Of a DNA stretch of 64,000 nt, positions 7,595 to 40,595 are shown one piece after another. The notes under the pieces are model-generated. The model ran no database searches. It was not told where the DNA came from and saw nothing but the letters and a program-made list of their open reading frames with translations. The stretch spans positions 111,457,692 to 111,521,691 of the forward strand of contig CM060978.1 of the NCBI GenBank assembly GCA_030765065.1, given 5' to 3'. The translations under genes were made by a program, and so were the position numbers. This stretch comes from Deroplatys truncata. Its lineage: Eukaryota > Arthropoda > Insecta > Mantodea > Mantidae. The first letter of the stretch is position 1, and each line of letters starts with the position of its first letter.

Positions 7595-8322
7595 ATGAGA
7601 GCTAAGAGAGGGAGGTCGTTGCAGTATAAGCGCGGCTCTGGAATTATTAATTCTATAATTAATTCGCTCCCCTTTGAAGCTCACTTACCTGGATATAGAT
7701 ATTGCGGGCCTGGTACTAAATTGGAAAAACGTCTAAAAAGAGGAGACCCCGGAATTAACCAATTAGACACAGCTTGCAAACAGCACGACCTCGCGTACGC
7801 TGAGAATAAGGACACCGCTTCAAGACAAATAGCGGATAAGATTCTTGCAGAGAAGGCTTGGAAACGTGTGCAGTCATCAGATTCAACTTTTGGTGAAAGG
7901 TTAGCTGCAAGGCTAGTAACTGCAATCATGAAGGGAAAGGTTGCAGTGGGAGCCGGAAAGAGGAAGAAGAAGAGAGGAGGGTTTTTACCGTTGATTCCCA
8001 TCATTGCTGCTTTAGGCGCTGCAGCAGGTGGCGCTGCTCAGATAGCCTCTGCAGTCAATAAAAAAAGGCTGCTGATAGACACTTGGCAGAAGTTGCGAGG
8101 CATAACAAGGCGATGGAGACCCAAGGAAAGGGGCTCCGGAAGGGTAGGTGTAAGAAGAGGAATAAAGGAGGATTCTTACCTGCAATGCCGCTGATGTCGT
8201 CTTTAGCCGCTGCATCTAAAATAGCAAGGTCTTTGAAAAAAAGGGGATCTAAAGGCGAGGGTTTAAAGAAGAAGGCAAAAAACGGAGGAAGAGGATTGTA
8301 CATATACCAGAGGAAGCCCTAA
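7595..8322 (+). pseudogene. PLA2-domain capsid protein, frameshifted
   Basis: This is a parvovirus-like phospholipase A2 protein; in related viruses the domain helps breach endosomal membrane during entry. Calcium loop YCGPG is at residues 36-40 and the catalytic helix DTACKQHD at 58-65 (His64, Asp65). A basic linker and a hydrophobic GGFLPLIPIIAALGAAAGG segment follow, resembling adenovirus minor core peptides. The frame from 7595 ends at 8194. Homology to the intact element 2 protein moves to another frame near the A run at 8060-8066, one base shorter than needed, and continues to a stop at 8320-8322. The displaced tail holds a second GGFLPAMPLMSSL segment that element 2 lacks. Its end overlaps the protease frame. 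Confidence 0.85.
8277..8283 (+). promoter_or_regulatory. Candidate -1 frameshift site A AAA AAC (copy 1)
   Basis: The heptamer AAAAAAC lies with AAA (8278-8280) and AAC (8281-8283) in the frame of the PLA2 C-terminus, the correct phase for tandem -1 slippage. The protease frame is the -1 frame. It becomes open at 8253, after a TAA at 8250-8252, and has no ATG before the conserved protease region. The same heptamer in the same phase sits at 39514-39520 in element 2. A downstream pseudoknot was not established. Confidence 0.6.
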
Positions 8323-8651
8323 GTAACGTAGCCCTCGAATATTATGCTAAACGTTTAAAAATTCCTTATTTTAGAGGGGTTTATATGATTGACAAACTTC
8401 CTTTAAAACCACACTGCAAAGAGAGACTTATTACCAATCTCGATACATCAGATAATGAAGGAACACACTGGGTTGCTATAAGGAAAGAAGGTGATGTCGC
8501 ATACTACTTTGATAGTTTCGGTAATTTGAAGCCGCCTCCTGAGATTGAGAAATATCTACAAGACGTTAAAATCTACTATAATACACAGAGATACCAGAAT
8601 TTCGATTCAGTCATCTGCGGACACTTGTGCTTGCAATTTCTTTTATCCTAG
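8277..8651 (+). CDS. Adenain-like cysteine protease, -1 frame of PLA2 gene
   Basis: This is a C5/adenain-type maturation protease expected to cut virion precursor proteins. Catalytic residues are His in GTHWVAIRKE (codon 8466-8468), Asp in YFDSFGNLKPP (8511-8513) and Cys in ICGHLCLQFL (8616-8618). The first ATG in frame is at 8385, but homology to element 2 extends well upstream of it (PEEALSN.. LEYYAKRLKIP). At the position where element 2 has an ATG, this copy has TAT. The N-terminal part therefore must come from frameshifting off the PLA2 frame, splicing or a non-AUG start. I set the start at the slippery heptamer. The domain is compact for the family. Confidence 0.8.
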   Translation, partial: KKRRKRIVHIPEEALSNVALEYYAKRLKIPYFRGVYMIDKLPLKPHCKERLITNLDTSDNEGTHWVAIRKEGDVAYYFDSFGNLKPPPEIEKYLQDVKIYYNTQRYQNFDSVICGHLCLQFLLS

Positions 8652-8670: not shown

Positions 8671-9381
8671 ATGAGTTATACAGTTACAGTGAGTGGGCCA
8701 GACACTGTTATTTCAACGTATCTAAACCCTCCTCTACAGCTAGATCCTCCAGGTCATTATGAGATTGCTCTCTTGAATTTTGAAACAACCTATTCAATAC
8801 CAAATGTCGATGGAAGTAATAATAGATTTCATTATATTCATAATGGTAAACCTGAAACCATTGTCATCCCTCATGGAACCTACGAGATTGCCGATATCAA
8901 TACATTTCTAAAGGATAAACTAGAATTGAATGATGAAGTCTTCTTCATAAGGCCTAACAATAATACAATGAAGGCTGAAATTAAATGTCCTTATACAATA
9001 GACTTTTCTAAGGAAAGATCTATTGGTTCGCTTCTAGGATTCACAGACACTAAAATAATTCCTGCTGGAGAAGCGCTCGAATCTGACGATCTTGTGAATA
9101 TATTTAAAGTGAGTATCATAAGTGTGGAGTGCAGTATTGCAACAGGCTCTTTCATTGACGGTAAAAGCGGACATTCGCTCTACGAGTTTTTCCCTTCTGT
9201 TCCGCCAGGCTATCATATCTCTCAAGAACCTTCGAACCCAATATATTTACCAGTCATAGATACAAACTATATAGACCAGATCACTATTCGAGTGGTAGAT
9301 CAACACGGGAAGGCTATCAACTTCAGGAACGAAGTTATCACTACAAGACTCCACATAAGACGTAATGGCAATACATTTTAA
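8671..9381 (+). CDS. Penton-like minor capsid protein
   Basis: This 236-residue protein is strongly conserved with the element 2 homologue from MSYTV to IRRNGN. Its size, position next to the major capsid gene and beta-rich character fit the single jelly-roll penton of Polintons and adintoviruses, which forms capsid vertices. Prominent blocks are YEIALLNFETTYSIPN, FFIRPNNNTMKAEIKCP and ATGSFIDGKSGHS. The ATG at 8671 is the conserved start, 19 nt after the protease stop. The last 17 nt overlap the next small gene in another frame. Confidence 0.82.
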   Translation: MSYTVTVSGPDTVISTYLNPPLQLDPPGHYEIALLNFETTYSIPNVDGSNNRFHYIHNGKPETIVIPHGTYEIADINTFLKDKLELNDEVFFIRPNNNTMKAEIKCPYTIDFSKERSIGSLLGFTDTKIIPAGEALESDDLVNIFKVSIISVECSIATGSFIDGKSGHSLYEFFPSVPPGYHISQEPSNPIYLPVIDTNYIDQITIRVVDQHGKAINFRNEVITTRLHIRRNGNTF

Positions 9382-24857: not shown

Positions 24858-26712
24858 AAGATAACCATGAATCTATGTGGGGAGACGCTGGATGTGTCCA
24901 CGGAGAGGGGCTGCCCGCAGGGGGGTGTTTTATCACCCCTGCTATGGAACCTTGTAGTGGACACACTTCTTTGCGCACTCAATAGTGATGGTTACTTCAC
25001 AGTAGGTTTTGCAGATGATATTGCAATAATCATAAGAGGTAAATTTCCTCACACAGTTTCTCAAGTGCTACAAATGGCGCTTGAGAAAGTGGAAGCTTGG
25101 TGCAAGATGAATAATCTAACTGTTAATCCAAGCAAAACAGTAGTGGTACCCTTCACCAGGAGAAGGGGGCCTGATTTAACCAGACTCTCTCTCTCTTTGG
25201 TGAGGTAGTGCCCTATTCAACACAAGTTAAATATCTTGGGCTTGTTTTAGACAAGAAATTAACTTGGAAACATCATATGGAATTATGTATTACCAAAGCC
25301 TACAGAGCCTTTTGGACATGTAGAGGTATGCTTGGCAAGACATGGGGTCTGAAACCTAGCATAGTGTATTGGATATACACTGCTATGGTGAGACCTATAT
25401 TCTCTTATGCCGCACTGATGTGGTGGCCTAGAGTTAATTTAAAGGTGTACAGAAATGAACTCTGTAAATTACAGAGGACCTTCTGCATTTCAATTATGGG
25501 AGCCTTCAAAACTACTCCAACTGCGGCTATGGAGATGCTGATTGGGCTCACACCTCTCCACTTATGGATGAAGGCAGAAGCCATGATCGCGTATCACCGT
25601 ATTTGTCGCCAAACCAAAGTGTCTAACACTGGACATATTAATCATCTCAAGCTTCCTTGGGATAAGAATGTTCAACAGATACTCAACATGGGGACTGACA
25701 TTCTTGAAACAAGATTTAAGTTTGATTTGAAATTTACGGTATCCTATCCACAGCGGAGTGAATGGGAAAGACTGGTAAAACCTCATAATAACAAAGGCCC
25801 AATCTGGTATACTGATGGTTCTAGAACCAAATCGGGAACGGGTGCTGGGCTTTACGGTAATGGTACCAAGATTTCTTATAGTCTTGGTACCTTAGCTACA
25901 GTTTTCCAGGCTGAGGTTTATGCAATCCTAGCCCGTGTCATGGAAATCATTAAAAGGAGATATAAGAATAGAAGTGTTCTTATCCTCTCAGACAGTCAAG
26001 CTGCTCTTAAAGCACTTGAATCGCCATCAATAAAATCAAAGCTCGTCTCAGAATGCCGGGAATCCTTAATGGCACTGGCCGAACACAATAAGGTTCAACT
26101 TATGTGGGTGCCAGGACATATAGGTATACCAGGCAATGAGAAAGCAGATGAAGCAGCCAAGATTGGCAGTGAAATCCCATTTTTTGGTCCGGAGCCTGTA
26201 CTGGGACTGTCCTACAGACCAGTGAAACAGGCTATTAAGTGCTGGGCTCAAGCAGAACACAAGAACTACTGGAACTCCATTGAGGGTTGCAGACATTCCA
26301 AGTTGTTCATTACAGACCTGGATAACAGCCGGGCAAAATACTTGCGCGGTCTTAGTAGAAGAAGACTTGCATGGGCAACAGGATTCATTACAGGACACTG
26401 TGCCCTAAAGTTTAATCTATACAGAATGGGATTGTTTAACAACCCTATCTGTAGTAGATGTCTAGAAGGAGATGAGACTGTTACTCATCTACTATGTGAT
26501 TGCCCTGCTCTTGCGAGTCAAAGAGCAAGTATTTTTGGCAGTCACTTTCCAAAGATAGATGAACTATCGAAAGCCTCAGTTAGCAGTCTGGTTAAGTTCA
26601 TATCGACCAACAGACTACTTAACTGATGAAAGGGGGGATGCGCAATAGATCTTAAGGTCGCAGTGCTTGGGCATAAAACCCACCCCTTCTCAAACTAGAA
26701 CTAGAACTAGAA
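24858..26712 (+). mobile_element. 5'-truncated non-LTR retrotransposon with 12-bp TSD
   Basis: The insert carries the end of a reverse transcriptase, an RNase H domain and a 3' tail of three ACTAGA-type repeats (26693-26712). The 12 bases CTATGGTGTGGG occur on both sides (24846-24857 and 26713-26724), a target-site duplication that also restores the interrupted transposase frame. Truncation at the 5' end is typical of target-primed reverse transcription. The RT plus RNase H layout fits the I/R1/LOA/Jockey group; clade not resolved. Confidence 0.9.
24867..26626 (+). pseudogene. Reverse transcriptase / RNase H polyprotein fragment
   Basis: The first frame (24867-25208) holds RT motifs CPQGGVLSPLLWNL and the catalytic FADDIAI, followed by NPSKT. 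It is broken near 25190-25208 beside a CTCTCTCT run. The next frame (25208-26626) continues with VKYLGLVLDKKLTW and thumb residues, then RNase H with DGSRT, QAEVYAIL, LSDSQAALKAL and GNEKADEAAK. The C-terminus has a zinc-knuckle-like CSRC....THLLCDC. The N-terminal RT, endonuclease and ORF1 are missing. One frameshift plus truncation make it non-functional. Confidence 0.92.
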
Positions 26713-38914: not shown

Positions 38915-39559
38915 ATGGGAGCTAGGAGGATCAAGATCTCCAGAGGCTCTGGGTTAATTAACTCTCTTATTAATTGGCTGCCCTTTGAAGCACATTTACC
39001 GGGCTACAGATATTGCGGTCCGGGTACGAAGTTGGAAAAACGCCTACAGAGAGGAGACCCCGGAATTAACCCATTAGACGAAGCCTGTAAGCAGCACGAC
39101 ATCGCCTACGCTGAGCACAGGGACTCTGCTACGAGAAATATAGCCGATAAGATCTTAGCCGAGAAGGCGTGGAAAAGAGTACAGGCATCGGACGCTACTT
39201 TAGGAGAAAAGTTGGCCGCCAGGCTAGTTACAGCAATTATGAAGGGCAAGGTGGCTGTAGGTGCTGGCTCCAGGAAGAAAAAGCATGGAGGATTTCTGCC
39301 TCTCATTCCTATTATTGCAGCCCTAGGTGCTGCAGCTGGAGGAGCAGCTCAAATCGCCACAGCAGTGAATAAGAAAAAGGCTGCAGATAAACAGGTTGCA
39401 GAAATGGCAAGACATAACAGAGAGATAGAAGCAAAAGGAAAAGGTCTTCAAGTGAAGAAGAATAAGACGAGAAATGTCAAAAAGAAGAGACGCAACAGCA
39501 AGAATGGAAATTTAAAAAACTCTGGAAGAGGACTGTACTTGTCCCGGAAAAAGCCTTGA
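38915..39559 (+). CDS. PLA2-domain minor capsid protein
   Basis: This intact 214-residue protein has the calcium loop YCGPG at residues 33-37 and the catalytic helix DEACKQHD at 55-62 (His61, Asp62), as in parvovirus VP1-type phospholipase A2. A basic patch follows, then a hydrophobic GGFLPLIPIIAALGAAAGG stretch (about residues 128-146) like those in adenovirus minor core proteins, then a Lys/Arg-rich tail. A role in membrane escape plus DNA or capsid binding is inferred. The tail codons contain the A AAA AAC heptamer, after which the protease is open in the -1 frame. First gene of the late cluster. Confidence 0.88.
   Translation: MGARRIKISRGSGLINSLINWLPFEAHLPGYRYCGPGTKLEKRLQRGDPGINPLDEACKQHDIAYAEHRDSATRNIADKILAEKAWKRVQASDATLGEKLAARLVTAIMKGKVAVGAGSRKKKHGGFLPLIPIIAALGAAAGGAAQIATAVNKKKAADKQVAEMARHNREIEAKGKGLQVKKNKTRNVKKKRRNSKNGNLKNSGRGLYLSRKKP
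39514..39520 (+). promoter_or_regulatory. Candidate -1 frameshift site A AAA AAC (copy 2)
   Basis: AAA (39515-39517) and AAC (39518-39520) are zero-frame codons of the PLA2 gene, 36 nt before its stop codon at 39557-39559. The -1 frame is open from 39466 and leads into the protease. Between slip site and zero-frame stop, the -1 frame products of the two elements share KK..KR.V..PE.ALSN, so this overlap appears to be translated in both frames. Confidence 0.65.
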
Positions 39560-39888
39560 GTAACATTGATCTCGACATGTATGCTAGACGTTTAAAGATT
39601 CCGCATTTTAGATGTGTATATAAGATTGATGAGTTGCCTACAAAGCCTCATCACCATGAGAGGATTATCGTCAACATCGATTCTTCAGAGAATGAAGGTA
39701 CCCATTGGGTTGCTGTAAGGAAGGAGGGTATCATTGCATTTTATTTCGATAGCTTTGGGAACCTAAAGCCTCCTAAAGAGATAGAAAGGTATCTCAGAGG
39801 TGTTAGGTTAATGTATAATACTGAGAGGTTTCAGAGTTTTAGCTCAGTCATCTGTGGACACTTGTGCTTACAATTTCTATCACAATGA
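39514..39888 (+). CDS. Adenain-like cysteine protease, -1 frame of PLA2 gene
   Basis: This maturation protease has His in GTHWVAVRKE (39703-39705), Asp in YFDSFGNLKPP (39748-39750) and Cys in ICGHLCLQFL (39853-39855). The only early ATG (39577) is not conserved in element 1, and homology extends upstream of it to the slip site; I therefore set the start at the heptamer (124 codons). If the ATG is used the product is only 103 aa, short for this family. The stop overlaps the penton ATG as ATGA (39885-39888). Confidence 0.82.
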   Translation, partial: KKLWKRTVLVPEKALSNIDLDMYARRLKIPHFRCVYKIDELPTKPHHHERIIVNIDSSENEGTHWVAVRKEGIIAFYFDSFGNLKPPKEIERYLRGVRLMYNTERFQSFSSVICGHLCLQFLSQ

Positions 39889-40595
39889 GTTACACTATTG
39901 CCGTTAGCGGTAATGAATCTGTTCTGGCAACACACCTGAAGCCTCCTCTGAGGATCGATCCTAAAGGATATTATGAGATCGCTCTTTTGAATTTTGAAAC
40001 CTTCTATTCTATTCCCAATGTGGATCATAGCAATAATCAGTTTCATTACATTTACAATGACAATCTTAAAGTCATTGATATACCTCATGGAACTTATGAG
40101 ATTACTGATATTAATGCATACATCAAAGATAAGCTTCAATTGGATGAGGATGTCTTCTTTATTCGGCCTAATAATAATACAATGAAGGCTGAAATTAAAT
40201 GTCCTTTTCCTATGGATTTTTCAAGGGAATGCTCTATTGGATCCCTTTTAGGTTTCAGTGAAAGCAAAGTCATTCCTGCTAATCAAGTGACTGAATCTGA
40301 TTTCCTAGTAAACATATTTAAGGTGAGCATAATACGAATCGAGTGCAGTATTGCAACAGGCTCTTTCATCGACGGTAAAAGCGGACACTCGATCTATGAG
40401 TTTTTCCCTTCTGTTCCGCCAGGATATCACATTTCGCAAGAGCCTTCAAATCCCATTTACCTGCCTATCATAGACACTAACTTTATCGATCAAATCACTC
40501 TTCGAATAGTCGACCAGAACGGTCATCCCATCAACTTTAGAAACGAGGATATAAGCATAAGACTTCACATACGTCGTAATGGGAATAGATTTTAG
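39885..40595 (+). CDS. Penton-like minor capsid protein
   Basis: This 236-residue protein is the same length as the element 1 copy and aligned throughout (YEIALLNFETFYSIPN, FFIRPNNNTMKAEIKCP, ATGSFIDGKSGHS, PPGYHISQEPSNPIYLP). It is expected to be the single jelly-roll vertex protein that also anchors the fibre-like protein. The shared MSYT start at 39885 was chosen over an upstream ATG at 39864. Its 5' end overlaps the protease stop by four bases and its 3' end overlaps the small basic gene by 17. Confidence 0.83.
   Translation: MSYTIAVSGNESVLATHLKPPLRIDPKGYYEIALLNFETFYSIPNVDHSNNQFHYIYNDNLKVIDIPHGTYEITDINAYIKDKLQLDEDVFFIRPNNNTMKAEIKCPFPMDFSRECSIGSLLGFSESKVIPANQVTESDFLVNIFKVSIIRIECSIATGSFIDGKSGHSIYEFFPSVPPGYHISQEPSNPIYLPIIDTNFIDQITLRIVDQNGHPINFRNEDISIRLHIRRNGNRF

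Follow-up and report, generated by a model that had tools for sequence, protein, structure and literature searches.

A predicted programmed −1 frameshift at the PLA2–protease junction of Polintons in the mantis Deroplatys truncata and of related elements

Layout of the PLA2–protease junction

The window analysed here is a 64,000-nucleotide (nt) stretch of the Deroplatys truncata genome (contig CM060978.1, positions 111,457,692 to 111,521,691 of the forward strand) that holds two diverged Polinton (Maverick/adintovirus-like) copies, termed elements 1 and 2. Its feature of interest is the junction in element 2 between a gene for a PLA2, or protein-X-like, minor capsid protein and an adenain-like protease lying in the −1 frame, where a programmed −1 ribosomal frameshift is predicted (Table 1). 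An earlier note on this DNA had located the heptamer A AAA AAC in the zero frame of the PLA2 gene, with a spacing of 36 nt to the stop TGA (39557–39559); both the coordinates and the phase are confirmed, as is the description of the protease frame as open from 39466 with its first ATG at 39577. The start context of the PLA2 gene, TATCATGG, is strong by the general rules for start contexts.

The heptamers of both elements (39514–39520 and 8277–8283) have the form X XXY YYZ in the zero-frame phase. Two more overlapping in-phase heptamers lie just upstream in element 2 only; comparison with the element 1 sequence showed that neither AAATTTA nor TTTAAAA is kept there. Across 17 open reading frame (ORF) stretches of the window, comprising 5581 codons, the PLA2 junction is the sole in-phase occurrence of A AAA AAC, and across 15 ORF stretches it is the only 1 of 20 Lys-Asn pairs to be spelled in this way, the chance per pair being 0.051 as estimated from codon usage; the homologous Lys-Asn pair of element 1, also spelled A AAA AAC, lies outside both sets of stretches.

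The earlier note had further described an equivalent heptamer in the same phase in element 1, with no ATG for the protease. The heptamer is present at its position and no protease ATG precedes 8385, but the phase is shared only with the homologous C-terminal frame, which reads ...AKNGGRGLYIYQRKP to a stop at 8320–8322, and not with the gene’s own start codon, because the PLA2 frame is broken upstream. Element 1 is therefore a relic of this layout and no working example of it. The −1-frame peptide common to the two copies (KKLWKRTVLVPEKALSN and KKRRKRIVHIPEEALSN) is exactly KK..KR.V..PE.ALSN, as the note had stated in proposing second-frame selection on the overlap; the two-copy argument is nevertheless weak by itself, with differences at 4, 3 and 5 of the 13 sites at protease codon positions 1, 2 and 3, respectively, which are few sites. 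The PLA2 tail of element 1 (approximately 8155–8250) contains an extra hydrophobic segment, GGFLPAMP...AAASKIA, that is absent from element 2 and resembles one in homologue P0001.

Table 1 Features of the PLA2–protease junctions in the window (heptamers are written in zero-frame phase)
Feature	Position	Strand	Remarks
Element 2 PLA2 / protein-X-like minor capsid gene (zero frame)	38915–39559	+	PF08398, E 5e-13; Adeno_PX, E 2.9e-4, below cut-off
Slip heptamer A AAA AAC, zero-frame phase	39514–39520	+	PLA2 codons AAA 39515–39517 and AAC 39518–39520
Two more overlapping in-phase heptamers	39508–39517	+	A AAT TTA as AAATTTA (39508–39514); T TTA AAA (39511–39517)
Dual-coded stretch	39521–39559	+	zero frame SGRGLYLSRKKP then stop; −1 frame LWKRTVLVPEKAL
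−1 frame with adenain-like protease	39466–39888	+	productive part expected from 39514
First ATG of protease frame	39577–39579	+	18 nt past PLA2 stop; residue 23, within helix 1
Element 1 PLA2 gene, frame disrupted	7595–8194	+	homologous C-terminal frame ends 8322
Element 1 slip heptamer A AAA AAC	8277–8283	+	in homologous C-terminal frame
Element 1 −1 frame with protease	8253–8651	+	first ATG 8385, residue 38, last of strand 1
Next gene of element 2, penton position	39885–40595	+	no Pfam match; named by position only

Element 2 carries the Polinton gene set, with matches to PolB (PF03175, E 1.3e-21), rve integrase (PF00665, 8.8e-13), A32-type ATPase (PF04665, 1.2e-6) and a double jelly-roll capsid protein (PF21738, E 3.9e-109) in addition to the adenain-like protease. 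In element 2 the protease stop and the start of the next gene overlap as ATGA (39885–39888), whereas the corresponding start of element 1, at 8671, does not overlap the stop; the overlap hints at coupled re-initiation. Between the two Polinton copies lies an ORF of a retroelement (25208–26626), with RNase H and a weak match to zf-RVT. Another slip-like heptamer, U UUA AAC, is found in phase at matching positions of the gene for the packaging ATPase in both copies (6964 and 38273, minus strand); it was rejected, as its −1 frame stays open for only 18 and 7 codons, and is probably due to chance.

Protease fold and start codons

The protease has no Pfam match, and was identified from a profile comparison with the adenovirus proteinase, adenain (1avp, E 6.2e-6), and from its AlphaFold model (mean pLDDT of 91.5), for which the best Foldseek match is 1nln (E 1.5e-7, TMq 0.72). 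The predicted structure has the adenain fold and the His...Cys catalytic motif, with GTHW and CGHLC aligning. In the numbering of the model, which was built from window positions 39511–39885, helix 1 comprises residues 18–27, and the conserved sequence LPxRPLSNIDLxKYAK of the protease homologues lies upstream of the ATG at 39577. Initiation at the element 1 ATG (8385) would cost the protein its helix 1 and almost the whole of strand 1; both first ATGs cut into the predicted fold, leaving the downstream −1 ORF without a usable start. As the fold begins upstream of any ATG, the upstream frame would be needed to make the protease.

The starts called in 82 protease homologues, sorted by their distance to the catalytic His, coincide with the conserved Met of GVFM or follow it in 54, which amounts to a comparable truncation, and lie inside helix 1 in 5, about LSN in 15 and further upstream in 7, with 1 unsorted, a distribution that is supporting only, given that starts are chosen by gene callers. 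The protease ORFs of P0170 and P0191 read ...RSFFREKSLQKL and ...RSFFRSKSLQKL directly before PLSNIDL, and their FFR may stem from a T TTT TTA or T TTT TTC heptamer read in the −1 frame, which would be an alternative slip site in another lineage.

The junction in relatives

Relatives were compared as proteins, the DNA-level comparison being that of the two window copies. Among the best 120 of 2258 PLA2 homologues, of which the named ones are, judging by genus name, presumably insects, 86 have Lys-Asn (KN) in their last 18 residues, with 72 of these pairs lying 0–2 residues from the end; in 500 shuffles of the last 30 residues, KN fell near the end in 18 of the 120 on average and in no more than 31. 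Because the tails are rich in Lys, this shuffle test is insufficient alone, and codon-level tests were therefore added. These used a terminal-KN set of 78 homologues, made up of the 72 and 6 members of the window’s own clade in which KN stands 12 residues before the end.

Terminal KN is preceded solely by S, P, Q, T, A, L, R or K. None of the 78 proteins has at this position a residue lacking an A-ending codon (C, D, F, H, M, N, W or Y), whereas such residues occupy the first, second and third positions before it in 35, 16 and 32 of the 78, and precede other KN pairs of the same proteins in 29 of 136 cases. On a tree of 146 PLA2 rows, 79 of which were typed as terminal-KN (77 homologues and both window copies), the residue before KN changed 33 times or more, in no case to a member of the excluded set; entries into and exits from that set number at least 17 one position further upstream and 11 at the position before that. 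A codon with T as its first base is possible after KN in 70 of the 78 (F, Y, C, S, W, L or stop, although non-T codons exist for S and L), and in 70 of 79 with the window copies included. The residue at this position changed at least 40 times on the tree, between chemically dissimilar kinds, yet T remained the common possible first base, and this shared T results in a constant Leu after Lys-Lys in the −1 frame.

The phase of the pattern was assessed over the last 20 codons, stop included: AAAAAACT is encodable in the slip phase in 70 of the 120 tails, in the other two phases in 9 and 8, and in none in 33, compared with 2, 2 and 5 in a control stretch 22–60 residues before the end. Some protease ORFs extend upstream across the corresponding region. 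P0124 reads KKLPIKLPNKPL and P0146 reads KKLVKRLPKRAL, placing KKLPIKLP and KKLVKRLP before the domain, and KKKTSIKLP in P0143 fits the −1 reading of a tail ending in KKKLR and a stop, such as those of P0062, P0083, P0090 and P0103. The protein data alone would thereby point to the base sequence A AAA AAC T in that phase, and most of the closest listed PLA2 homologues (78 of 120) appear to have such a site, with Lys-Lys-Leu in the −1 frame. Conservation of the heptamer and its phase, which the earlier note had proposed as a check, is thus seen in the DNA of two out of two window copies and as a protein-level signature in those 78 homologues. What carries the comparative case is how often these residues changed independently along the tree, together with the phase.

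Scans of viral contigs with PLA2, protease and capsid queries yielded no DNA from relatives, and a PLA2 alignment search gave 11 loci with short PLA2 matches only, in which a protease profile recovered no protease (tblastn E of 3 or worse). The lone genome-contig match considered as a relative (L012) was rejected as bacterial.

Longer protease homologues, scored with an X-padded query, gave 193 matches; the named ones among the best 120 are, judging by genus name, nearly all insects, one, Capitella, being an annelid. In 33 of the best 120 of these 193, PF08398 is found in the same protein as the protease, which suggests that a PLA2–protease polypeptide is viable. Annotated genomes or UniRef supplied 14 of the fusions, and contig sources only the other 19; annotated models may hold predicted introns, and P0203 and P0204 differ in their join. 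The 25 fused rows that were usable on the tree fall into one clade of 13 (the six named members of which are, by genus name, presumably ants), a second clade of 7, and 5 placed elsewhere. Terminal-KN rows are spread over the whole of the unrooted tree, with 17 changes against a shuffled mean of 48.6, and this wide spread favours a frameshift state older than the fusion.

A linker KN precedes the protease in 13 of the 33 fusions (2 of 33 without an anchor), and the residue after it is V eight times, F four times and I once; with mostly V or I at this position, the T is not preserved in proteins that have no need of the −1 frame, the 13 being mostly from one clade. The junction KN is retained in fusions such as P0225, P0231, P0233 and P0234, and if it were spelled A AAA AAC, slippage there would release a protease-free PLA2, the reverse of the arrangement in the window. 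A second type of fusion joins an N-terminal adenain-like protease (MDVYGxxIPDKALTN...) to an rve integrase, mostly with a chromodomain as well (P0251, P0257, P0263, P0270, P0271 and others); PF00665 is carried by 40 of the best 120 long protease matches, and in P0255 the protease follows the integrase.

A probable gag-pro-like switch and its alternatives

The end of the PLA2 gene is likely, with a probability of about 0.86, to be a conserved programmed −1 ribosomal frameshift that works like retroviral gag-pro. From the observed sequence, phase, protein-level conservation and predicted fold, we infer the slip, the resulting fusion protein and the role of that protein. Most ribosomes would terminate at the PLA2 stop, and a fraction would slip one base back on A AAA AAC into the protease frame, producing a PLA2–protease fusion, the protease probably having no usable start of its own; in other relatives one continuous protein would take the place of the slip. 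The fusion would probably place the maturation protease at a membrane-active core protein during assembly. The proposal of the earlier note, that a −1 frameshift joins PLA2 to an adenain-like protease, is in this way upheld by the codon-level signature in relatives, by a fold that begins ahead of any ATG, and by the one-protein fusions. Its ‘fixed low ratio’ of protease is conjectural, and relatives with one-frame fusions would make a 1:1 product; its packing of the protease in virions is a speculative parallel to retroviruses and adenovirus.

Several observations weigh against a frameshift or limit its reach. Folding of both copies gave no stable or unusual RNA structure 3′ of the slip site (z −0.76 to 1.30, pseudoknots being outside the model), so that the stimulatory structure expected downstream of the slip did not materialize; such a structure is not required at every known −1 frameshift site. 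In element 1 the PLA2 gene is broken 5′ of the heptamer, its own ORF ending at 8194, and the base directly after the heptamer is G, not T. Beyond the window, A AAA AAC is read from proteins, and the PLA2 homologues are nearest matches, mutually related, and not a random sample. The terminal-KN pattern does not fit 42 of the 120, KN being absent from the last 18 residues in 34; some of the 42 belong to clades with fusions or KKK tails, P0002 may be incomplete, and some are unexplained. The KP and KG pairs, found in GLYLKPY repeats, are also followed by a T-type residue at rates of 0.89 and 0.72, making that property alone not unique, and the rarity of excluded residues before KP, KG and KL pairs (0.04, 0.08 and 0.09) somewhat weakens the test of the preceding residue, although the repeats may be the cause of these low rates. 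The linker KN in 13 of 33 fusions indicates that the KN residues alone may be partly inherited, and some protease homologues (MKLP..., MNLP...) may start near the junction on their own.

Translation of the protease alone, whether from the ATG at 39577 or a near-cognate codon, through leaky scanning, through re-initiation once the PLA2 stop has been passed or on a transcript of its own, would make the heptamer incidental, and is improbable. The in-frame ATG of element 2 is close to the PLA2 stop, starts are called directly before LPxR in some homologues, and the ATGA overlap with the next gene makes re-initiation conceivable in a series of genes; this ATG, however, lies within helix 1 and is absent from element 1, whose own first ATG would remove that helix. 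Near-cognate codons (CTG, GTG, TTG and ACG) are scarce in the first 100 nt from the slip site, amounting to zero in element 1 and one TTG in element 2, a further five AUGs separate the PLA2 start from 39577, and the in-phase A AAA AAC T signature is left unexplained. That base-level signature is also left unexplained by an intron that removes the PLA2 stop and joins the frames, which we consider very unlikely. No AG within 39440–39580 is preceded by 15 nt with a pyrimidine fraction of at least 0.55 (maximum 0.53 over 15 sites), and 1 of 17 AG sites in element 1 reaches this value (8206, 0.67). Insect gene models join the two domains at differing junctions in the closely similar proteins P0203 and P0204, but these models probably reflect guesses made in annotation.

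Transcriptional slippage, in which the polymerase slips on the A-run to make frame-shifted mRNAs encoding the same fusion, has the A-run in its favour, and relatives ending in KKKLR may have longer ones; six A are few for such slippage, which moreover requires neither the codon phase nor the T after C, and we give it very little credence. It is scarcely conceivable that Lys-Asn is instead a protein motif, such as a processing or binding site, or a DNA signal, such as a promoter, with no frameshift taking place. The linker KN of the 13 fusions would allow common descent of the residues, and the set S, P, Q, T, A, L, R and K preceding KN could have chemical reasons, but the residues or stop that follow terminal KN in 70 of 78 proteins share only a possible first base T, the mostly one-clade fusion linkers continue with V, F or I where T is not needed, and a DNA signal would not hold one phase.

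The −1 frameshift of the gag-pro junctions of MMTV and HTLV-1 occurs on A AAA AAC. The PLA2 junction resembles these retroviral junctions in its heptamer, in the structural protein upstream and in the maturation protease downstream in the −1 frame, and differs in belonging to a double-stranded DNA element, in having an unrelated cysteine protease and a minor capsid, membrane-active protein in place of Gag, and in the lack of a detected downstream structure. In adenovirus a cleaved peptide of pVI binds adenain, so that there, too, a membrane-active core protein is functionally tied to adenain, whereas here PLA2 and protease would be one polypeptide.

Within the sections consulted of a 2024 preprint (PMC11071296), KnotInFrame-based −1 frameshifts are suggested in adintovirus Penton genes, with a similar relationship for potential Hexon–Adenain (‘Hexain’) fusions. 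That system shares with the PLA2 junction the virus group, a capsid protein extended by a suggested −1 frameshift, and a fusion to adenain; its upstream genes are Penton and Hexon, and those sections contain no heptamer or conservation analysis. The term PLA2 is absent from the preprint’s main text, and ‘phospholipase’ appears once, for polyomavirus VP2. The Spodoptera Mavericks Sf Maverick 1 and 2 resemble the present elements in being insect Mavericks with PLA2 and adenain-like genes, and are described in the relevant passages of PMC5803895 with CAP (PLA2) and PRO as separate ORFs, both mentions of ‘frameshift’ there concerning errantiviruses. The statement of the earlier note that no such frameshift had been reported in Polintons holds for PLA2–protease among the literature matches listed, including the consulted parts of PMC11071296, PMC10120064, PMC12567637, PMC8363768 and PMC5803895 (the founding adintovirus paper, Starrett 2021, being outside this scope), and needs qualifying in view of the suggested Penton and Hexon–Adenain frameshifts of PMC11071296. 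The class of mechanism is known; the PLA2–protease gene pair and its wide conservation appear to be new.

A wider scenario, to which we attach about equal chances of being right and wrong, is that a gag-pro-like switch using A AAA AAC arose in eukaryotic DNA viruses as the ancestral maturation-protease route of arthropod Polintons. The protease would be made only as a PLA2 fusion and delivered to the core by its membrane-active partner, and several lineages would later have swapped the slip for an in-frame fusion, or have kept KN for making protease-free PLA2.

If true, the frameshift would be conserved in a large group of animal DNA viruses and transposons, and would have converged on the way in which gag-pro supplies a protease. 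It would explain why the Polinton protease is seen as a short ORF without a good start, and would tie protease activity to a membrane-active core protein. A PLA2 ending in ...KN followed by F, Y, C or S and the stop would serve as a sequence marker for intact elements, bearing on whether Polintons still make virions.
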